From Spirochaetia bacterium (lineage in GTDB: Bacteria > Spirochaetota > Leptospiria > Turneriellales > JAOUOS01): a DNA stretch of 64,000 nucleotides. Positions 8,705 through 20,249 of the stretch are shown here, piece after piece. Position numbers and translations under genes: made by a program. A model generated the notes under the pieces. That model was not told where the DNA came from and searched no databases. It saw only the letters and a program-made list of their open reading frames with translations. The stretch spans positions 1 through 64,000 of the forward strand of contig JAOUOS010000002.1 in NCBI GenBank assembly GCA_029880285.1. Direction: 5' to 3'. Within the stretch, counting starts at the first letter, position 1. Each line of letters begins with the position of its first letter.

Positions 8705-8727
8705 TTTTTATTTTTTCTGTGTATTAT
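8700..8727 (+). promoter_or_regulatory. Promoter of the receiver-EAL gene
   Basis: TTGACT (8700-8705) and TATTAT (8722-8727) are 16 bases apart. This places transcription start near 8734, so a possible GTG start at 8719 would fall inside the promoter; the ATG at 8752 is the more likely start codon. Confidence 0.6.
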
Positions 8728-8751
8728 TTAGCACATAACATTAAAGAATTT

Positions 8752-9987
8752 ATGCAAAAAACTGAAAATAAAATTTATAAAATAATTATTGCCGATGACC
8801 ATCAATTGTTCCGCGAGGGCATCAAAAAATTAATTTATAACAAACCAAATTTAGAAGTCTCTGGCGAAGCCTCTGACGGCAAAGAACTCATTGACCTCTT
8901 AAGAAATACCGCCTGTGATCTTATACTGCTTGATTTATCTATGCCAAACATAAACGGCCTAGCGGCTTTAGATATTATTAAAAAAAAGTATCCAAGCTTA
9001 AAAATAATTATAGTTACCATGTACCATGAAAATGGATTTTTTGATCAAACAATAGAAAAAGGCGCCGACGGCTTTATGCTTAAAACCCAAATGTTTTCTA
9101 AACTTACAGAAGCCGTAGAAATAATCATGAACGGCGGCCATTATTATGACGCTTTGTCTATTAACCATGATTTAGATGATGAAAAAATGGATAATAAAAT
9201 TTTACAAAACAATATTAATTATTTTAATAACACTTTTGAAAGAGACGTTACCAGCGCTATAAAAGATAACGAATTTAATGTTTATTACCAGCCAATTCTC
9301 TCTACATCAACTAATAAAATTACAGGCGTAGAGGCTTTAATGCGCTGGTACAAAAATGGTCAAATACTTTCACCGCAAGATTTTATAGAAAGAATAGAAA
9401 AAACAAAACAAATAATTGAAATAGGTAAAGTAATTTTAGAAAAATCTCTTACACAGGTTAAAAAATGGCACGATATGGGTTATTCTAATTTATCTGTCTC
9501 GGTAAATTTTTCGTCAGTTCAATTTCAAAGTCCCCATATTGTTAAAAACATAAAAGATGCTCTAGAAAGAACAAACCTTTGTCCCAAAAAATTAAGAATT
9601 GAAATTACCGAAACCTTGGCAATGCAAAACCTAAACTTTACCAAAAAGATATTAGGCGAATTAAGAAATCTGGGTGTTACTATTTTGTTAGACGATTTTG
9701 GATGCGGTCATTCTTCTTTAAGATATTTACAGCATTTTCCCGTGCATGGTCTTAAAATAGACAGGTCTTTTATTGAAAGCATAGACACCAACGAAGTAAA
9801 CCGTTCTTTAACCGAAGGCATAATTACTATAGCTAAACAATTAAAATTAAAAACCGTTGCCGAAGGCGTAGAAAACGAAAAACAACTTAAAGTAATAAAA
9901 GATAAAAAATGCGAAGAATACCAGGGGTTTTATTTTTCAAAACCTCTTTCGGCAGAAGAATTTGAAACCATGCTAACAGAGGCATGA
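8752..9987 (+). CDS. Receiver-EAL cyclic di-GMP phosphodiesterase
   Basis: A 411-aa cytoplasmic protein. The N-terminal receiver is of NarL type (IIADDHQLFREG, Asp in LILLDLSMPNING, Lys in MLKTQ), but the usual LuxR HTH is replaced by an EAL domain. The EAL residues look complete: VEALMRW, EITET, DDFGCGHSS, LKIDRSFI and AEGVEN, so active hydrolysis of c-di-GMP is expected. I chose ATG 8752 over an upstream GTG at 8719 because the latter overlaps the -10 box. The gene diverges from the multi-sensor kinase and shares its upstream element with the following chemotaxis operon, which suggests joint control of c-di-GMP level and taxis. Confidence 0.9.
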   Translation: MQKTENKIYKIIIADDHQLFREGIKKLIYNKPNLEVSGEASDGKELIDLLRNTACDLILLDLSMPNINGLAALDIIKKKYPSLKIIIVTMYHENGFFDQTIEKGADGFMLKTQMFSKLTEAVEIIMNGGHYYDALSINHDLDDEKMDNKILQNNINYFNNTFERDVTSAIKDNEFNVYYQPILSTSTNKITGVEALMRWYKNGQILSPQDFIERIEKTKQIIEIGKVILEKSLTQVKKWHDMGYSNLSVSVNFSSVQFQSPHIVKNIKDALERTNLCPKKLRIEITETLAMQNLNFTKKILGELRNLGVTILLDDFGCGHSSLRYLQHFPVHGLKIDRSFIESIDTNEVNRSLTEGIITIAKQLKLKTVAEGVENEKQLKVIKDKKCEEYQGFYFSKPLSAEEFETMLTEA

Positions 9988-10119: not shown

Positions 10120-10914
10120 ATGGGTAAAATAATAACTATAGCCAATCAAAAAGGCGGCGTTGGTAAAACAACAACAGCTTTAACACTTGGTTTATGCTTG
10201 AGCCAAAACCAAAAAAAAGTATTACTGCTAGATTTAGACCCCAGCGCGTCTTTAAGCATGCAGTTTGTTTTTAATAAAAACGAAACCCGAAAAACAATTT
10301 CAGACTTTATTAAAACAGAAAACACTAACTTTGAAACTATATTTAATGAATATATTATTAAAACAAATTATGATAATTTATGGCTCATGCAGTCTCATGA
10401 GAGACTTTATAAAATTGAAAAAAACCTGAGCAAAGGCAATAAAATACGCGGATTTTTATTAAAAAATAAATTATCAGAAATTAAAAATAAATTTGACTAT
10501 ATTATTATTGATACTTCGCCTACTTTTGGATCATTGCTAATAAACGCCCTTGTTTCAAGCTCTTTGGCAATAATTCCCATACAAAATGAATTTTCTGTTT
10601 TTCATGGATTAAATTTATTTATATCTACAATTGAAAAAATAAAAAATAGCCTTGAAAAAGATTTTGAATACAAACTTCTTCTTACCATGTATGATAAAAA
10701 TATAGACGACGGTGAATTATACCGCCGCAAAATACAAGGCGCTTTTGAAGATATCATGTTTAAAACAGTCATTGACTATGACTCTACCATTAAAGCGGCC
10801 AGCAACTCGGGAGAATGTCTTTTAACTTTTGCCGCCGATTCTGCCGGCGCGAAACAATATAAAAGTTTTTCAGAAGAAATAGAAGAAGCAGAAATGGTAA
10901 CCATAGGCGGTTAA
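10120..10914 (+). CDS. ParA/MinD-family ATPase, probably positions chemosensory arrays (ParC-like)
   Basis: A 264-aa cytoplasmic ATPase. The deviant Walker [10 protein letters not shown] spans 11-19 (Lys11 and Lys16), the A' box is [10 protein letters not shown] and the Walker B box is [11 protein letters not shown]. There is no N-terminal DNA-binding extension and no parB gene, so chromosome segregation is unlikely. It is the first gene of a chemotaxis operon and is followed after 22 bases by an extended CheW-like protein. In Vibrio-type systems ParC (ParA family) and ParP (CheW-like) localise arrays to the pole; the same role here is an inference from context. Confidence 0.85.
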
Positions 10915-10936
10915 AATAAAAAAAGGAGATCGAAAA

Positions 10937-11881
10937 ATGCAAACAACACTAGAAAAAGAAACAGTAAAAGATGAAAGCAGACTTGATAAAATGATAGGAT
11001 TCGTTGCCGATAAGATCGGTAAAAAAGTTCCCGAGGTAAGTAAAGTAAACATAAAAAAAGAAATACATTTACCAAAAGAAGCAGCTTTCTTTGAAGCTAA
11101 AAATGAGAATGAAAACAATAAAAAATTAAAAGATCAAAATGAAAATATATTAAAAGAAGCAATAACATCTGAACCTTTAAATGCGCCCTCTGAAGATTAC
11201 AGCGATATTGAAGATGACGACTTCAAAGTATCTTCTTCATACAGCAGTGAAACAAATGATGCCGAAGGCTTTTTCTTAAGCGACCTTGGCGGCATGCACA
11301 ATATGACAGATGAAGAAGAAACTGACGATTTTGTTTTTATAGGTTTTAAAATGAAAAACGAAGAATACGCTCTTAATGTTCTTCAAGTAAAAGAAATCAC
11401 AAACATGCCCCAAATTGCCAAAATGCCCAATACGCCTGATTTTATTGAAGGCGTTATAGAATTAAGAGATAACTTTTTACCCGTTTTAGATTTAAGAAAA
11501 AGATTTCAAATGGGTAAAGCCGAGTTAAACAGCGAATCAAAAATAATAATTATCGATTCGGGTAAAAAAGAAATAGGACTTATAGTAGAATCTGTCACAG
11601 AGGTTGTAAGAGCAGATAATCAATTTGTTGAAAAAGCGCCGGGAATGGTTTCAGGCATAGAAAAGAAATATATTTCGGGCCTATTAAACCAAAACGGTAA
11701 AACCACCGTACTCTTAGACCTCGAGAAAATTTTATCGGCCCAAGAGCTTGCCAAGCTAATAGAACTAGAAAATGCCGAAAAAGAAAAGATTGAGATAAGT
11801 CAAAACAAGCAAGAAAAAAATCTTACAGAAACTCAAAACCAAAAGCCCGCCCCAAAGGGCGGGCTTCTTATTGAGGCATAA
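10937..11881 (+). CDS. CheW-domain protein with long acidic N-terminal extension (CheW or ParP-like adaptor)
   Basis: 314 aa. The first 130 or so residues are charged and probably disordered (many Glu, Asp, Ser). A CheW domain then follows (about 132-280) with DFVFIGFKMKNEEYALNV, VEGV-type motif FIEGVIELRDNFLPVLDLRKRF and GLIVESVTEVV. The tail is Glu/Lys/Gln-rich. CheW couples receptors to CheA; the extension and the preceding ParA-like gene make a ParP-like localisation role possible. The start is well set by AAAAGGAG before ATG 10937. The last codons form a strong hairpin at 11843-11866. Confidence 0.85.
   Translation: MQTTLEKETVKDESRLDKMIGFVADKIGKKVPEVSKVNIKKEIHLPKEAAFFEAKNENENNKKLKDQNENILKEAITSEPLNAPSEDYSDIEDDDFKVSSSYSSETNDAEGFFLSDLGGMHNMTDEEETDDFVFIGFKMKNEEYALNVLQVKEITNMPQIAKMPNTPDFIEGVIELRDNFLPVLDLRKRFQMGKAELNSESKIIIIDSGKKEIGLIVESVTEVVRADNQFVEKAPGMVSGIEKKYISGLLNQNGKTTVLLDLEKILSAQELAKLIELENAEKEKIEISQNKQEKNLTETQNQKPAPKGGLLIEA
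11843..11866 (+). promoter_or_regulatory. RNA hairpin inside the 3' end of the cheW-like gene
   Basis: A perfect 10-bp stem, AAGCCCGCCC paired with GGGCGGGCTT, has a 4-base CAAA loop. It ends 15 bases before the end of the gene and lies about 48 bases upstream of the MCP start. No U-tract follows, so it is not a standard terminator. It may protect or process the mRNA, or partly attenuate transcription within the operon. Confidence 0.6.
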
Positions 11882-11914
11882 ATTAAAATAAACAAAACAA
11901 AAGGAGATAAAAAT

Positions 11915-14098
11915 ATGTTTAGTTTCAAAAATATAAAAATAAGACCAAAATTATTAGCGCTATTTTTAATAGTAGGGCTTTTACCTTTGGCAGGTATAGG
12001 AATTTACAGCGTAAAGTTGGCCAATGACGCTATTTTTAAAAACGCGTTTAACCAGTTAGAGGCCATAAAGCAGATTAAGAAAAACCAAATTACGTCTTTT
12101 TTTAACGAAAGAAAAGGCGATATTGTGGTTCTTTCTTCAAACGAAGAAGTGATAAATGCTCTTAATAATATGAGTGCAGCGTTTTCGAAAGAAAATAATA
12201 AAATAAACGGCCCAAAATATAAAGAAGCAGAAAAAGAACACGGCCCGTGGCTTCAAAAATACCAGAAAGAATACGGTTACTATGATGTTTTCTTAATGGA
12301 CCTAAAAGGTAATGTTATTTATACAAATTCGAAAGAAAGCGATTTAGGCGAAAATTTAATTCACGGCAAATTAAAATCAAGCGGCCTCGCGAAAGTATTT
12401 AATATGGCCATAAAAGAAGGCTTTGGCTTTGACGATTTTGAACCTTACGCGCCTTCTAACGGCGAACCGGCATCCTTTATAGCGCATCTTGCCGAAAGAA
12501 ACGGCAAAGCCGAGGGTGTTGTGGGACTTCAAGTTTCTCTAAAGGCCATAAACAATATTATGCAAGAAAGAACCGGTATGGGTAATACAGGCGAAACATA
12601 TCTTGTAGGACCCAATAAACGCATGAGATCAGATTCTTACCTTGACCCTAAGGGTCACAGTGTAAATGCCTCATTTGCCGGTACAATAGAAAAAAACGGC
12701 GTAGATACCGAGGCCAGCAGCGAAGCTTTAGCGGGTAAAGCCGACAAAAAAATTGTCATAGATTATAACGGCAACCCTGTTTTATCGGCATACGCGCCCT
12801 TAAATATATTTGAAAAAGTAACATGGGCCATCATGGCAGAAATTGACGAAGCCGAAGTAAAACTGCCCATTGACGCATTGAATCTTTCAATTATTATTTT
12901 CGCGGTAATCATAGCAGGTATCGTAGCATTCATTGCTTTTGTTACAGCAGGCGGCATTGCCAAGCCAATTCAAAAAGGTGTAAAATCGCTTGAAAAAATA
13001 GCTGACGGTGATCTTTCAGAAAATATTGAAGCTAAAACGCAGGACGAAATTGGCGATTTATACCGCGCCATGCAAAGACTTCATAAAGCAACCAACGAAA
13101 TGGCCTATTCCGCTTCGCAAATTGCAAACGGCGATCTTACGGTAAAAATAAATCCGCGGTCTGAGAAAGATGTTCTTGGTATATCCCTTTCTGATATGTC
13201 AAATAAGCTTTCTATGACAATGGAAGAAATAATAGGCAGCATTGAAAACATGAACAACGTGGCCCAGCAGTTAAGCGCCACATCAGAAACTATGAATTCT
13301 TCATCGGCCGAACAAAGCGCAAACGCCGAAGAAATATCTGCCTCTCTTGAAGAAATGGTGGCCAATATCGACTTAAGCAATAAAAACACCGGCGAAACCA
13401 GTAAAATAGCATCCAGCTCATCTGGTGAGGCAATACAAGGCGGCGACGCGGTTGCCAAAACGGTAGAAGCCATGAAAAAAATTGCCAAAGAAATTGTTAT
13501 TGTTCAAGAAATTGCCGAGCAGACAAACTTATTGGCCCTAAACGCGGCTATTGAAGCAGCGCGAGCAGGCAAGCACGGCAAAGGTTTCGCGGTTGTGGCC
13601 TCTGAAATTCGTGAATTAGCAGAAAAAAGCCAGGTATCGGCAAAAGAGATTAGCGGCTTAACCGACAGTTCAATGACCGTATCAGAACAAGCCGGCAAAC
13701 TGCTTGAAGCCATGGTACCAAACATTCAAAGAACAGCCGACTTAATTAAAGAAGTAAGCAGTGCGGCTCAGGAACTTAAAAATTCTGCAGATTCAATTAA
13801 TGAATCTATGGAAACTTTTAACCAAACAAGCCAGACTAACGCGGCTGCTTCTGAAGAGTTAGCGGCAACAGCCGAAGAAATGAGTTCACAGGCGCAGAAT
13901 CTATATGACACTATTTCATTCTTTAAAGTAAACGGCAGCTCAACAAAACAAAAAACACAGGCGTCTTTTAAAAACAAAGGCAACGGTGGTTCTTCTGTTC
14001 ATAAAGAAGGCAATGGCGGTTCTTCTTCTCATAGTGAGGGCAACGGCGGTTCAAAAGTAAAAGACACTGTAAAAGAAAAAGAATTTGTAAAGTTTTAA
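11915..14098 (+). CDS. Methyl-accepting chemotaxis protein with dCache sensor and C-terminal tether
   Basis: A 727-aa transmembrane receptor. TM1 is about residues 13-33, the dCache-type periplasmic domain about 38-315 (with [13 protein letters not shown] and MRSDS), TM2 about 323-347, then HAMP (about 348-400), a second HAMP-like segment and the signalling domain with the hairpin tip [21 protein letters not shown] and [16 protein letters not shown]. After the coiled coil the tail has three 10-residue GNGGSS-type repeats (688-717) and ends EFVKF. That ending fits the aromatic-x-x-aromatic pattern of CheR-binding pentapeptides. AAAAGGAGA precedes ATG 11915. The ligand is unknown; many dCache receptors bind amino acids or other small solutes. 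Confidence 0.95.
13976..14065 (+). repeat. Three 30-bp tandem repeats encoding a flexible receptor tail
   Basis: Three exact 30-base units (13976-14005, 14006-14035, 14036-14065) encode [20 protein letters not shown] and [10 protein letters not shown]. Gly/Asn/Ser-rich sequence of this sort is a flexible linker between the coiled coil and the C-terminal EFVKF. Copy number could vary between strains. Confidence 0.8.
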
Positions 14099-14130
14099 GA
14101 CGGTAAATAATATAAAAAGGAAACCAGAAT

Positions 14131-15756
14131 ATGAATGTAAACGCTATAAGACAGAAAGGTTATAAAATTTACCAGGTAAAGGTATCTGTCAATGAAGAGA
14201 ATAAATTCCCTTCATTGACGGGTATTGACGCCTTTCGACTGCTGAATAAAAAAGAAATTTTTGGCGAACCTTATGAATATTTAACATGCCGCCCTAATCT
14301 TTTTAACCCGGCAGAAAGAGAAGTTGTAGATACAGTTTATGAGTTTAATCACTTTTTTGCCTCTACCTTGAAACTGGATGTCATAAATAAAAACATTCAG
14401 AAAATTAATTTAACGGGACACTTAAAATCATTATCTGTTGAAGAATTTTCAGGTGAAATAATCGATCAAAGAAGTCATAGCACCGACAGAAGAGAATCGG
14501 CCGCTTTAAAAGAGTTTCAATTTGATGAATCTGAGCAAAAAGAAACCAAAAGCATTAGAATTGATCTTGAAAGAATTGAAGAATTCGGTGACCTTGTGGG
14601 TGAGCTTATTATAAATAAAATTCAAATTGAATCGCATATACATGAGCTTTTAAAAGAAATAAAACATCAAAGTAAAGCTTCTATCAATTTGACAACCGCC
14701 AGTAAACACCTTCAGCTTATTTCTGGCAAGTTAAGGGATCTTTCTTTAAGCATAAGAATGGTGCCTATCTCTACTTTATTTAGAAAGTATCCGCGTATAT
14801 TAAGAGAAATTGCTAAAAAACAAAATAAAAAAGTAAAACTTATTATTCAGGGCGAAGATACCGAACTTGACAAAGCTATAATTGAAAAAATAAACGATCC
14901 GCTATTGCACATGATAAGAAATTCAATTGACCATGGTATTGAAAATGAAACTGATAGAAGAAAAAGAAAAAAAGATACCATGGCCAGACTTCTAATAAAA
15001 GCTTATTATGAAGGCGATAGAATTATAGTAGCGGTAGAAGATGACGGACGCGGATTAAATCTTGAAAAAATTAAGAAAAAAGCCCTTGAGAAAAATTTAA
15101 TAAACAAAGACAGAGCTTCTCAACTTACAGACAAAGAACTAATGAATTTAATTTTTAGTCCCGGTTTTTCTACTGCTGATAATGTTACCGATATATCAGG
15201 CCGCGGAGTGGGTCTTGATGTCGCGTTAAATAATATAACCAAACTAAACGGAACCATTGAAGTAGAATCAAGAGAAGGCGTAGGCACAAGATTTTTAATG
15301 AAACTGCCTCTTACGCTTTCTATTATACAAGCTCTTCTTGTAAGAGAAGGCGGCGAAACCTACGCGATACCGTTATTTACTGTTCACCGAACCATGACGC
15401 TTGATAAAGAAAAAATAAGAACAATGGGAAGATACGAGGTTTTAGAGCAGGAAGGAGAAGTTCTGCCTGTTTTTGATTTGCAAAAACTTCTTGAAATAAA
15501 AAGAGAAAGCGAAAGGCAAAACCCGTTTTTAATAGAACTTTCAGGTTCAGACGGTAAATTTGGCCTTATAGCCGAAGAAATTTTGGGCCAGCAGGAAATT
15601 GTAATAAAACCGTTAAGCGAATACATAGGCATTGTAGACGGCATAAGCGGAGCCACAATACTTGGCAACGGCAGGGTCAGCCTTATTCTTGATGTAAAGG
15701 CCATAGGTAATAAGGCAAGAAAAAATATTGAAAAAATGGTAGAATTAAAAGCCTGA
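14131..15756 (+). CDS. cheA: CheA kinase core lacking the Hpt (P1) domain
   Basis: A 541-aa histidine kinase of the chemotaxis array. Residues 1-95 form a small domain that is not an Hpt (no HxxKG motif) and could be a P2-like or novel domain. Dimerisation P3 is about 145-225. The P4 ATPase is about 226-395 with N-box HMIRNSIDHGIE (260-271), DDGRGLN (304-310), FSPGFST and GRGVGLDVA (358-366). The P5 CheW-like domain is about 396-535 with GGETYAIPL. Without P1 it cannot autophosphorylate in cis. The next gene supplies an Hpt domain, so trans-phosphorylation is the natural reading, as in the Rhodobacter sphaeroides CheA4/CheA3 pair. AAAAGGAAA precedes ATG 14131. Confidence 0.92.
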   Translation: MNVNAIRQKGYKIYQVKVSVNEENKFPSLTGIDAFRLLNKKEIFGEPYEYLTCRPNLFNPAEREVVDTVYEFNHFFASTLKLDVINKNIQKINLTGHLKSLSVEEFSGEIIDQRSHSTDRRESAALKEFQFDESEQKETKSIRIDLERIEEFGDLVGELIINKIQIESHIHELLKEIKHQSKASINLTTASKHLQLISGKLRDLSLSIRMVPISTLFRKYPRILREIAKKQNKKVKLIIQGEDTELDKAIIEKINDPLLHMIRNSIDHGIENETDRRKRKKDTMARLLIKAYYEGDRIIVAVEDDGRGLNLEKIKKKALEKNLINKDRASQLTDKELMNLIFSPGFSTADNVTDISGRGVGLDVALNNITKLNGTIEVESREGVGTRFLMKLPLTLSIIQALLVREGGETYAIPLFTVHRTMTLDKEKIRTMGRYEVLEQEGEVLPVFDLQKLLEIKRESERQNPFLIELSGSDGKFGLIAEEILGQQEIVIKPLSEYIGIVDGISGATILGNGRVSLILDVKAIGNKARKNIEKMVELKA

Positions 15757-15780
15757 TAATATTGAATAAAGGATAAATTT

Positions 15781-16758
15781 ATGTCAAAAGAAACTTCAAA
15801 TCAAAAAAAAGGCTCATCTCTTTTAGATAAGATAGACTATTCTTACTTAAAAGATTTTACAGACGCGGCAGAAGAACACCTTCAAGAAATTGAAGAAGAA
15901 CTTCTTGAAATTGAAAAAAATCCCGAAAACTTAAAACCTGTTGAAAACATTTTCAGATGTTTTCACTCAATAAAAGGTGATTCAGCATCGGTAGGACTTT
16001 CGCCCATTAGTGAGGTTACACATGAAACCGAAGAAATTTTCGATCTAATTCGCGAGAATAAAATGAAAATTTCAAAAGTTCTTATAGACGCGGTCTTTGA
16101 GACTATAAATGTCATAAGATATTTTATGACAACGGTATCTCAAAAAAAAGAACCACAGCAGAATATTAGCTGGCTTCTTGAAAAGTTTAATTATATTAAA
16201 ACTACCCCTTTTGAAGAATTAGACGAAAACAAAGACGATTTTGGTTTCGAATTAGCGCAAAAAGAAAATGAAACTACTGACATAGACGATGACAACGAAT
16301 TAGATGAATCGAGCATTAATACCTATGTTATGTTTCGTGTGGGAAAAATTAACTGCGCCTTACCTCTTTATAAAACAGAAGAAGTCGTTGAAAACCTTGC
16401 TTTAACAAGAATTCCATTTATAGAAGATTTCATAGACGGAGCCGTTAATTTAAGGGGTAGCATTGTACCAGTTGTTAATTTAAGAAAAAAATTTAATATG
16501 CCCGCTTCAATAGATGTATATAATAAAATTTTAATAACAAGTTTTAATAATAATAAAATTGGTTTAAATGTTGATGAAGTTTTCGCCATAGAAGAAATTC
16601 TTCCCGAAAAAATTTCTGAACCCGGCGGCGATTTAATCGCTCTTGATAATTCTTTAGTTTCAGGAGTATTTAAGTCTCACGGTGTTTTGGTTTTTTTACT
16701 AAGTTATGAAATGGTTTTAGATAAAAGTAAAAAAGCAAATTTAAACTTAAACAACTAA
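15781..16758 (+). CDS. Hpt-CheW fusion protein (detached P1 domain of CheA)
   Basis: 325 aa. The N-terminal Hpt/P1 domain (about 18-135) has the phospho-acceptor motif CFHSIKGDSASVGL with His62. An acidic linker (about 145-182) is followed by a CheW domain (about 183-318) with TYVMFRVGKINCALPL, FIDGAVNLRGSIVPVVNLRKKF and IGLNVDEV. The P3 and P4 domains are absent. The protein is therefore likely to be phosphorylated in trans by the preceding CheA core and to dock in the array through its CheW part. It is the probable phosphodonor for the CheY at 16831. AAAGGA precedes ATG 15781; the gap after cheA is 24 bases. Confidence 0.92.
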   Translation: MSKETSNQKKGSSLLDKIDYSYLKDFTDAAEEHLQEIEEELLEIEKNPENLKPVENIFRCFHSIKGDSASVGLSPISEVTHETEEIFDLIRENKMKISKVLIDAVFETINVIRYFMTTVSQKKEPQQNISWLLEKFNYIKTTPFEELDENKDDFGFELAQKENETTDIDDDNELDESSINTYVMFRVGKINCALPLYKTEEVVENLALTRIPFIEDFIDGAVNLRGSIVPVVNLRKKFNMPASIDVYNKILITSFNNNKIGLNVDEVFAIEEILPEKISEPGGDLIALDNSLVSGVFKSHGVLVFLLSYEMVLDKSKKANLNLNN

Positions 16759-16795
16759 TATATACGCGGCAGCTTTTTGAATTGCCGTGTGTATA
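16759..16795 (+). promoter_or_regulatory. Intergenic RNA hairpin between hpt-cheW and cheY
   Basis: Directly after the stop codon a 13-bp stem (two G-U pairs, core CGGCA/TGCCG) encloses an 11-base loop. A-rich sequence follows instead of a U-tract, so it is not an intrinsic terminator for the plus strand. Its place suggests an mRNA processing or stability element. Confidence 0.5.
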
Positions 16796-16830
16796 AAAAA
16801 TATTAAAAAACAAAACAAAAGGAGAAAACA

Positions 16831-17205
16831 ATGAGTATAAGAAACGTGCTTTTGGTAGACGATTCTATTTTAACCCAAAAACAGCTTTCAAAAATTTTAG
16901 AAGAAGGCGGCTACAGGGTAAAAGCAATCGCGCAAAACGGTGTTGAAGCCGTAAACAAATTTAAAGAGTTAAAAGACGAAGTTGATCTTGTAACACTTGA
17001 TATCACAATGCCCGAAATGGACGGCATTGAGGTTTTAGAGAAAATTTTTACCATTAATCCTCATGCAAAGGTTATAATGGTAAGCGCCATGGGCAAAGAA
17101 AACACTGTTCAACGGTGCCTTTCAATGGGGGCAAAAAGTTTTATAATAAAACCTTTTTATAAATCAAAAATATTGGAGACAATTGAACATGTCGGCGCCC
17201 AGTAA
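16831..17205 (+). CDS. cheY: CheY single-domain response regulator
   Basis: A 124-aa receiver with no output domain. Acidic pair in LLVDDSILTQKQL, phospho-acceptor Asp in LVTLDITMPEMDG, Thr/Ser in VSAMG, Lys in IIKPF. The VDD-S-x-x-x-x-K pattern and position after the Hpt-CheW gene fit CheY, which carries the signal from the array to the flagellar switch or another motor. AAAAGGAG precedes ATG 16831. Its end overlaps the first cheX by 17 bases, so the two are probably translationally coupled. Confidence 0.93.
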   Translation: MSIRNVLLVDDSILTQKQLSKILEEGGYRVKAIAQNGVEAVNKFKELKDEVDLVTLDITMPEMDGIEVLEKIFTINPHAKVIMVSAMGKENTVQRCLSMGAKSFIIKPFYKSKILETIEHVGAQ

Positions 17206-17686
17206 TGCTACAAGCGAAGCAGTAATTGAAGATCTAATTTCAAAGATAAACGAAAATACGCTGCCTTTATCTACCATGAAAGAAAGAGGCAGGGTGGTAT
17301 TAGGTGACTTTATTAGATCTGAAATTGTAAGCTATGAAAACAAAGAGCACACTCTAGAAAAGTATAAACATACTTATGAGCTTGATATTCACGGCAGTCT
17401 TAACGGTAAAATCTATTTAAATTTAAATTCAGATATAGCCGATTACCTTTCAACTGTTCTTTTCGGAGAATCAGAAGAAGAATTAAGAGACGAAGCCATG
17501 AAAGAAACGCTGAATATTTTCAGCGGTCATATGTCGGCTTTTCTGCATGAACATGATTACGATATTGACATAGGCGTGCCATCTGCCAGTGCACACGACA
17601 TTGTCACATCAAAACCTAAACTAAAACTGCTTTTTAGGTATATGACAAACCAGCAGATGATGCAGTTTTTTATGGAAATAGACTAA
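17189..17686 (+). CDS. cheX: CheX-like CheY phosphatase, paralog 1
   Basis: 165 aa. CheX family proteins dephosphorylate CheY-P and act as dimers. The catalytic ExxN motif is present as KETLN within DEAMKETLNIFSGH, the usual setting. I take ATG 17189 as start, because GGAG at 17174-17177 is well placed for it; a TTG at 17183 in the same frame is less likely. The start lies within the last codons of cheY. A second, clearly related copy follows 29 bases downstream. Confidence 0.85.
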   Translation: MSAPSNATSEAVIEDLISKINENTLPLSTMKERGRVVLGDFIRSEIVSYENKEHTLEKYKHTYELDIHGSLNGKIYLNLNSDIADYLSTVLFGESEEELRDEAMKETLNIFSGHMSAFLHEHDYDIDIGVPSASAHDIVTSKPKLKLLFRYMTNQQMMQFFMEID

Positions 17687-17715
17687 GAGCAGCTTAAAAA
17701 GGAAAATTAACTAAA

Positions 17716-18228
17716 ATGACTGTAACAAATAAAACAGTTCCTCAAGAGTACCAGAACATAGAAGATCTGATTGACAAAATAAATCATGAAATGCCCCCCT
17801 TATTTCGCCTGAAAGAAAGGGGGCGACTGGTTCTTGGCGAATTTGTTAATTCAAATATATTCAGTTATAATAAAAAAGACCAGCAATTTAAAGAATATCA
17901 GCTTACCTACTCGCTTGATTTTTTTGGATCGCTGCAAGGTAAAATATTTTTAAATATTGAACCCGATATAGCGGTACATATCACCAAATTATTATTTGGG
18001 GATGATTTAGATGACCCTATATCTCTTGTAAATGAAGCTATGAAAGAAACTTTGAATATTTTCAGCGGACATCTTGTAGCTTTTTTACATGAATTTAATC
18101 ATGATCTTGATATAGGCGTACCCTCGCCCGTAAAACATAACTTTTTAGAATCTAAGTGTAGAAAAAAAATTCTTTTTAGATTTTTATCAAATGATCATGT
18201 ATTGCAATTTTTAATGGAAATTCATTAA
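17716..18228 (+). CDS. CheX-like CheY phosphatase, paralog 2
   Basis: 170 aa and plainly homologous to the preceding protein along its whole length (shared LKERGR-VLG-F, YSLDFFGSLQGKIFLN, EAMKETLNIFSGH, DLDIGVPSP, ILFRFLSND). The ExxN motif is intact, so both copies could be active. AAAAAGGAAAA lies upstream of ATG 17716. A tandem pair in one operon implies either separate CheY targets, a heterodimer, or a recent duplication under selection. Confidence 0.85.
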   Translation: MTVTNKTVPQEYQNIEDLIDKINHEMPPLFRLKERGRLVLGEFVNSNIFSYNKKDQQFKEYQLTYSLDFFGSLQGKIFLNIEPDIAVHITKLLFGDDLDDPISLVNEAMKETLNIFSGHLVAFLHEFNHDLDIGVPSPVKHNFLESKCRKKILFRFLSNDHVLQFLMEIH

Positions 18229-18269
18229 AAAAATTTTGAAGAAAACTAAATGTGAAAGGAGATTTAAAA

Positions 18270-20249
18270 ATGAAATGGATTAGAAATATAAACATGAGAA
18301 AGAAATTCTTAATAATGATTTTTTTTCCTACTGTGAGCCTTTTATATTTTTCACTGGTAACTATCAATGAAAAATACAAAATCTATACCGAGATGCAAAC
18401 GCTTGAAGCATTAGCTGATTTTGGAGTAAAAATCAGCGAGATGGTGCATGAAACGCAAAAAGAAAGAGGAGCCTCAGCCGGATACCTTGGCGCGAAAGGA
18501 ACACAGTTTCAAGATGAGCTTGCCTCCCAAAGAAAAGCAACCGACTTAAAAAGAGAAATTGTTTTAGATATGTATAAAAATTTTAATGCATTAGCTTATC
18601 CAGAAGAATTTAATACAAATTTAAAAGAAACATTTGAAACTGTCGCAAAACTAGACGAATGGAGAAAAAATGTTTCGTCTTTAAAAATTTCAGGAGCCGA
18701 AGCTGTAAAACTTTATACACATCTGAACGAACATCTGCTTGAAATAGTCGGCTTTGTTTCAAAGTTAAGCACCAATGCCGAAATTTCGACATTAGCTTCG
18801 GCTTATGTTAACTTTATTCAAGGCAAAGAAAGAACAGGCATTGAAAGAGCCGTGCTAAGCAATGCATTTGCCGCTAATAAGTTTATAGGCGATAATTTTT
18901 TAAAGTTTAATTCACTTGTAACCCAGCAGAAAACATACACCAGTGTATTTTTAACTTTTGCGAATAAAAATCAAAAAGATTTTTATACCGAGAAGATGAA
19001 TAATGACGCAGTAAAAAAAGTAACCGAAATGGAAAATATTGCTAATGAAAAATCTACCACAGGTAATTTTGGCATTGATGCCGTTTACTGGTTTGAAACT
19101 ATCACAAAAAAAATAAATATACTAAAAGAAATTGAAGACAAATTAAGCGACGACCTTCTTAAAAAGGCACATGATGTAGAAATGAAAGCGCTAACTGTTT
19201 TTTCATCATTTGGCATAATAGGGTCGTTAGCATTGATACTATCTCTGTTTTTTGTTTACTTGATTTCAAATGTTATTGTTAACAGAATAAATGAAACAAA
19301 AAATTCTTTTGATAAACTAGCCGATGGCGATATTAATCTTGAAATTAAAAACGAAGGCACCGATGAGCTAGGCAAAATGCTTTCTGCCATGAAAAGAATG
19401 ATTGTATCAACGCAGGAATTTTCACACATTATGGAAGAAATAGCCAATGGTAAACTTTCGGTAAAGGTAACGCCAAGATCAGATAAAGACGTAATGGGTA
19501 TAGCCCTTAAAACAATGACCGAAAAAATGGCGCAGATTATTAAAAGTATTGCGCAAAGCTCGCAGTCTTTATATGCAGCTTCTGAAGAAGTTAGCCGCTC
19601 GGCAGATATGATGAGTTCATCGGCCGGTGAGCAAAGCGCCAATGTTGAAGAAATAAGCGCCACAATTGAAGAACTTAGCGCCATAGCTTCAAATAATTTT
19701 GAAAACTCTAAACAAACAAATAGCATGGCCCTAAATTCTGTAAAAGAATCAGAAGAAAGTGAAACAGCAGTAAAAGGAACTGTAGACGCAATGACGAATA
19801 TTTCTAAAAAAATAAATGTTGTTCAGGATATTGCTTCTCAAACAAATTTATTAGCGCTAAACGCGGCCATTGAAGCGGCCAGAGCGGGAAAATTTGGCAA
19901 AGGCTTCGCTGTTGTCGCGGCAGAAATTCAAGAACTAGCTGAAAAAAGTCAGGTAGCCGCGAAAGAAATAAACAGCCTTGCTGCGTCAAGCCACGAAATA
20001 TCAAATAGAGCCGGTAATTTAATTAACCGTGTTATACCAAATATAAGAAAAACTTCTGAACTGGTAACTGAAATAAGTGATTCTTCTGAACAGCAAAACG
20101 GAAGTTTATCTGAAATGAGCAAATCATTGGAACAACTTAACGATATAAGCCAGCAAAACGCGGCTTCATCTGAAGAACTTCTTGCTACTGCCACAGAAAT
20201 GAAATCGCAGGCAGAAAACTTAAAGGAGCTAGTTTCATACTTCTCCTAA
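18270..20249 (+). CDS. Methyl-accepting chemotaxis protein with NIT (nitrate/nitrite-sensing) domain
   Basis: A 659-aa receptor. TM1 is about residues 9-30. The periplasmic region matches the NIT family by its two hallmarks, [12 protein letters not shown] near the start and [17 protein letters not shown] further on. TM2 is about 305-332, then HAMP and the signalling domain with tip [21 protein letters not shown] and [16 protein letters not shown]. It has no C-terminal pentapeptide tail like the other MCP. The start is ATG 18270 because AAAGGAG at 18255-18261 fits it; the in-frame GTG at 18252 lies before that site. NIT domains are known for nitrate or nitrite sensing, but the ligand here is untested. 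It is the last gene of the operon. Confidence 0.93.

Follow-up and report, generated by a model that had tools for sequence, protein, structure and literature searches.

A spirochaete CheA predicted to be split between P1 and P2, with its phosphodonor domain on a CheW-type adaptor

We propose that two adjacent spirochaete genes, here called KIN and HPTW, very probably encode the halves of one CheA that is cut between P1 and P2, with His62 of HPTW phosphorylated in trans and CheY accepting the phosphate. Whereas the phosphorylatable histidine of an ordinary CheA forms part of the kinase chain, here it sits on an adaptor, and the domain predicted to dock CheY stays with the kinase. The evidence comprises domain content, motifs, the identity of the P2 domain, the CheW class of HPTW, co-occurrence and linkage. 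The genes lie in a 64,000-nucleotide window, by which we mean the whole stretch of DNA analysed, and all features located in it below are on its forward (+) strand. The host is a 3.3 Mb draft genome in 102 contigs, 92% complete, in which the spirochaete flagellar sheath family FlaA (PF04620) scores above cut-off (0/14 control genomes). An initial sequence-only reading had placed the two halves side by side in a spirochaete-like genome, and the ORF coordinates and FlaA bear this out.

KIN and HPTW are separated by 24 bp, each start has a purine-rich stretch upstream, and both belong to an operon-like run that extends from 10120 to 20249. A ParA-type ATPase (10120..10914; domain scan) heads the cluster and is followed by CheW1, a plain adaptor with a long N-terminal extension (10937..11881; domain scan, tree), and by the chemoreceptor MCP1 (11915..14098; domain scan) directly upstream of KIN. 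Beyond HPTW come a CheY-like response regulator (16831..17205; Response_reg E 3e-28), which is the likely phosphate acceptor, then CheX1 (17183..17686, start codon uncertain) and CheX2 (17716..18228), both CheX phosphatases, and the NIT-domain chemoreceptor MCP2 (18252..20249), the last three assigned by domain scan. The CheY-like gene is retained beside HPTW in three relatives (G001, G059 and G178). Both of the tandem CheX-type genes that follow cheY (window 17183-18228) are present in the closest relative, G001. The ParA-type gene (10120-10914) is also retained in G001 and none was seen in the other relatives' loci; its place at the head of the cluster recalls PpfA in the split-CheA operon of Rhodobacter sphaeroides, and the MCPs here look membrane-bound. 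Genes for EAL-domain proteins of the c-di-GMP phosphodiesterase type lie near the split CheA both here (window 8719-9987) and in a Bacillota locus (L194 11672-13516).

KIN (14131..15756; ORF, Pfam) is a CheA kinase half of 541 aa with the order P2-P3-P4-P5. Its Pfam matches are H-kinase_dim, the P3 dimerisation domain (residues 140-204; 14548..14742), HATPase_c, the P4 ATP-binding kinase domain (residues 256-395; 14896..15315), and CheW, here the P5 regulatory domain (residues 400-526; 15328..15708), which groups with CheA P5 domains in the tree. All four nucleotide-binding boxes of P4, namely N, G1, F and G2, are preserved (HMIRNSIDHGIE, VEDDGRGL, PGFST and SGRGVGLD, at residues 260, 302, 340 and 354). 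The Hpt profile of Pfam finds no match anywhere along the protein, and a search of residues 1-130 for a conventional Hpt domain found none, so that the earlier description of a kinase with P3, P4 and P5 and no Hpt holds.

What, then, is the N-terminal domain of KIN? An AF2 model of residues 1-135, built from 11 homologues, has a mean pLDDT of 79 (80-93 across residues 1-110) and the fold order beta-alpha-beta-beta-alpha-beta, matching known P2. When it was searched with Foldseek against 350,542 PDB chains, the top match was 1u0s_A (E 5.4e-5, probability 1.00), in which P2 of Thermotoga maritima CheA was solved bound to CheY; the matches that follow are ribosomal protein S6. The Pfam P2 profile gives a weak match in 5/11 homologues (best E 0.0036) and no match to KIN itself, the curated cut-off not being reached. 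The NCBIfam profile CheA_Halo is shared out between the two proteins, HPTW covering positions 4-152 and KIN positions 167-665, with KIN aligned from residue 11 at position 167. In a pairwise alignment, KIN from residue 3 onward spans P2-P5 of the complete CheA of Tissierella pigra. Since the fold match and the alignment with full CheAs outweigh the sub-cut-off Pfam result, model and alignments identify residues 11-105 (approximate limits; 14161..14445) as a divergent P2, predicted to dock CheY, and the cut thus falls between P1 and P2. The suggestion that the kinase carries a new short N-terminal domain is rejected on the same evidence of model, Foldseek, weak Pfam matches and alignments.

HPTW (15781..16758; ORF, Pfam, profile, model) is a predicted Hpt-CheW phosphodonor adaptor of 325 aa. 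As had been read from the sequence, it combines an Hpt domain with a CheW domain: Pfam places Hpt (P1) at residues 22-105 (E 1e-13; 15844..16095) and CheW at residues 182-315 (E 7e-26; 16324..16725), with the fold search in agreement for both, and finds neither P3 nor P4. His62, the predicted phosphorylation site (HSIKGD; codon 15964..15966), is invariant in 13 homologues together with Lys65, Gly66, His81 and Glu84, a spacing that we take to be the same as that of His48, Lys51, Gly52, His67 and Glu70 in E. coli P1. The structural model consists of a five-helix P1 (23-141), a low-confidence and probably disordered linker (149-177, pLDDT <50; 16225..16311) and a CheW fold (180-315). Among solved chains, the closest to HPTW in sequence are CheW and the P1 domains of CheA, and the fold search lists P1 of R. 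sphaeroides CheA3 (3kyj, 3kyi) among the matches to its P1; the Hpt domain is of CheA type. An Asp follows the HxxKG motif (window 15964-15981, HSIKGD) in 7/7 HPTW proteins of the phylum and in 0/85 complete CheA P1 domains that have the motif, in which the position holds G, S, T, A, N, M, L or V. A tree of P1 domains (118 rows, 103 columns) has too poor a resolution to trace the P1 of HPTW.

The class of the C-terminal domain of HPTW decides how the pair relates to the split CheA of R. sphaeroides, which the sequence-only reading had named as precedent. One could regard HPTW as a direct counterpart of CheA3, that is, a full CheA minus P2-P4 that has kept its P5; the division of labour is alike, and CheA3 itself has been interpreted as a full CheA in decay (PMC10782961). 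In a tree built from 99 CheW-type domains (41 P5, 13 Hpt-CheW and 45 scaffold CheWs, R. sphaeroides CheA3 and CheA4 being absent from this and the following tree), however, a branch with support 100 sets all 41 P5 domains apart from the other domains, and all 13 Hpt-CheW domains fall on the side of the 45 scaffold CheWs. A careful 42-row tree gives the same separation (100/100), and the fold search lists nine CheW chains ahead of its first CheA P5 chain. The topology test does not reject an unrooted tree in which HPTW is kept with P5, Hpt-CheW then branching between CheW and P5 (p-AU 0.151); P5 itself forms a closed group. In addition, no P3/P4 remnant is seen in the model between P1 and CheW of HPTW, where the linker has only ~30 residues, and P2 lies on the kinase half, whereas CheA4 is without P2. 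We consider a direct counterpart of CheA3/CheA4 unlikely. The C-terminal domain of HPTW does not lie within P5 and is of the scaffold-CheW class, and because the trees place it among the scaffold CheWs (100/100) the most suitable reading of the protein is a CheW adaptor to which an arm, predicted to be phosphorylated at His62, has been joined. It looks like a CheW with an added P1, rather than a CheA minus its middle, and the halves are therefore not simply a second CheA3/CheA4. The precedent stands as far as trans-phosphorylation is concerned, which is the most likely course by analogy, but not as to subtype.

HPTW might instead be an additional carrier or sink for phosphate that comes mainly from the complete CheAs of the cell, with KIN using a different donor. 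Counting KIN, the genome encodes three CheA kinases, and its Hpt domains number four: besides the pair there are complete CheAs on contigs C69 (735 aa) and C6 (1028 aa) and a lone 115-aa Hpt protein (contig C11), which could be such a donor. Full-length CheAs, whose pairing with this operon would have spoken against a split kinase, do therefore exist, but each has an Hpt itself and belongs to a separate locus. A Bacillota genome in which Hpt-CheW lies near a complete CheA (G515, below) likewise lends itself to the carrier reading. Against it stands the distribution of the genes in the phylum, sampled from a larger group as 393 genomes for the KIN profile and 387 for the HPTW profile. The KIN profile retrieves seven full-length members (612-876 bits; next score 436) and the HPTW profile the identical seven genomes (352-449 bits; next 119), so that a search for the gene pair in related genomes, as had been suggested, found both genes together. 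These genomes, six besides the source, span six genera and five families. HPTW without KIN occurs in 0 of the 387 genomes, though complete CheAs are nearly universal in the phylum. The two genes are adjacent in 6/7 genomes, and three of these six show an overlap of 4 bp, as is usual where translation is coupled; G178, the seventh, has both in one operon but with three genes between them, namely one for a HEAT-repeat protein, cheR and one for a receiver. We regard the carrier or sink as quite improbable. The perfect co-occurrence and the 4-bp overlaps in three relatives support KIN and HPTW as a functional pair, and all seven KIN cores group in a single clade (100/100). An artefact, a single gene split by frameshift or misassembly, found no support and is rejected as practically excluded: each half has its own start and its own C-terminal CheW-type domain, the order P2-P3-P4-P5 / P1-CheW is impossible from one broken CheA, and the pair recurs in seven independent genomes, one of them with three genes between the halves.

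The other Hpt domains of the genome being those of the two complete CheAs and the lone 115-aa protein, HPTW holds its only free Hpt that is also predicted to enter the array. The CheA of contig C6 (L047 8426-11509) continues beyond P5 in a long C-terminal extension to which Pfam assigns no domain; judged by eye, the extension looks like CheC/CheX, and this would agree with the CheA-CheC/CheX fusions reported in Leptospirae (PMC10782961).

Hpt-CheW proteins are also found outside the phylum, in 6/398 genomes of a Bacillota-centred sample. Four of these six loci (L194-L197) have the order MCP-CheW-CheB-KIN-HEAT-CheR-(REC)-HPTW-...-CheY, as in G178, and their KIN likewise has a P2-type N-terminus. 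The HEAT proteins of spirochaete and Bacillota loci are homologous (phmmer E 4.6e-14). A HEAT-repeat gene between the CheA halves (L086 1588-2226 in the spirochaete, L194 6444-7928 in Bacillota) may encode an array component. A test of common origin for the kinases of the spirochaetes and those of Bacillota gives no rejection (p-AU 0.36), but the tree does not show such an origin; the shared order KIN-HEAT-CheR-REC-HPTW favours it. In a fifth genome (G551), KIN has been lost beside a transposase-like gene and HPTW is retained; the operon has decayed (L198 5879-9763), with a truncated MCP, KIN and its neighbours gone, and HPTW and the downstream genes kept. The sixth (G515) has Hpt-CheW near a complete CheA (L199 9374-14963), which has a similar Hpt of its own as well as a receiver domain. 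Hpt-CheW can thus exist without a P1-less kinase. Elsewhere, a wide contig scan on common CheA motifs returned, among the matches listed, CheAs of the ordinary kind and no others; six of these have no P1, and all six lie at contig ends. The KIN/HPTW pair was not found in searches of plasmids; four alphaproteobacterial plasmid loci checked for a CheA3/CheA4 pair hold one CheA each, and a Desulfobacterota-centred search found no Hpt-CheW.

How might the two halves work together? In the split CheA that we favour, KIN would dimerise via P3, bind ATP via P4 and enter the receptor array via P5, while CheY would be docked on P2 and held where phosphorylated P1 meets P4. HPTW would join the same array as an adaptor, its CheW domain holding P1 in the ring. 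Under receptor control, His62 would be phosphorylated in trans by KIN and the phosphate passed to the CheY held nearby, presumably the product of the gene at 16831, from which CheX would then remove it. We infer this transfer, and the docking in the array, by analogy; the known biochemistry of CheA, together with R. sphaeroides as precedent, makes trans-phosphorylation most likely. More tentatively, HPTW may be a mobile phosphodonor that occupies CheW positions of the ring and offers P1 to neighbouring KIN subunits, with a variable number of histidines per kinase. If so, the number of phosphorylatable histidines would depend on the number of CheW positions taken by HPTW, instead of being fixed at one per CheA, and the output gain could be tuned with the kinase unchanged. 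The sequence-only reading had suggested that the donor could vary in stoichiometry or be shared between arrays. If confirmed, the split CheA would be a natural two-protein system in which donor number, array position and CheY docking are separately variable, and it would be informative about the way in which signal gain and ultrasensitivity depend on the stoichiometry of the array.

Split CheA as such is already known, from R. sphaeroides and from separate Hpt genes. Neither CheA3 nor CheA4 of Cereibacter (Rhodobacter) sphaeroides autophosphorylates alone, and together they phosphorylate CheY6 (PMC3591291). As here, a P4 protein without P1 is combined with a P1 protein without a working P4, both halves end in a CheW/P5-type domain and are encoded in the same operon, and the system includes a ParA homologue, PpfA (PMC3591291, PMC6829392). 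CheA3, however, has a 794-residue middle of decayed domains with CheY6 phosphatase activity, against a linker of ~30 residues in HPTW, and CheA4 is devoid of the P2 that KIN possesses (PMC10782961, PMC2829493). The end domain of HPTW is of CheW type, and dephosphorylation would be left to CheX rather than to the phosphodonor. The pair thus has the marks of a split CheA (an Hpt-less kinase, a separate P1 protein, linked and co-inherited genes) and none of the three tested features of the R. sphaeroides subtype (a P2-less kinase, a long decayed middle, a P5 end).

Split CheAs made up 11/481 CheAs in an earlier count, and theory allows a split kinase to produce bistability (PMC3591291). CheAs without Hpt amount to 1.7%, some with a separate Hpt gene in the same operon; in this bipartite CheA the second gene encodes an Hpt domain, whereas the Hpt of HPTW is fused to a CheW domain of its own (PMC10782961). 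Closest in architecture, Hpt-CheW with a short linker and P3-P4-P5 are both listed among the CheA variants of Caldicellulosiruptor saccharolyticus (Hamer et al. 2010, PMC2829493). From architecture among other things, we infer that the Bacillota loci L194-L197, which hold both architectures in one operon, match these variants; the survey does not call them a pair and gives neither a kinase P2 nor a CheW class. In the open-access literature we found no description of a spirochaete case, of the P1/P2 cut or of the CheW class of the donor protein. As the pair stays together in distant bacteria, dividing CheA in this manner is a genuine, though rare, design for a chemotaxis switch, and the split CheA is conserved as a module across two phyla or more. 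Among spirochaetes, CheWS of Treponema denticola (CheW-CheRlike) is likewise a CheW adaptor with an extra domain, modelled in the ring near P4 of CheA and thus a precedent for the position proposed here for P1, but that domain is a SAM sensor and not a phosphodonor (PMC10653840). The same survey of CheW dropped every CheW+Hpt architecture, counting it as CheA (PMC10653840); judging from HPTW, the proteins so classed include CheW-type adaptors.
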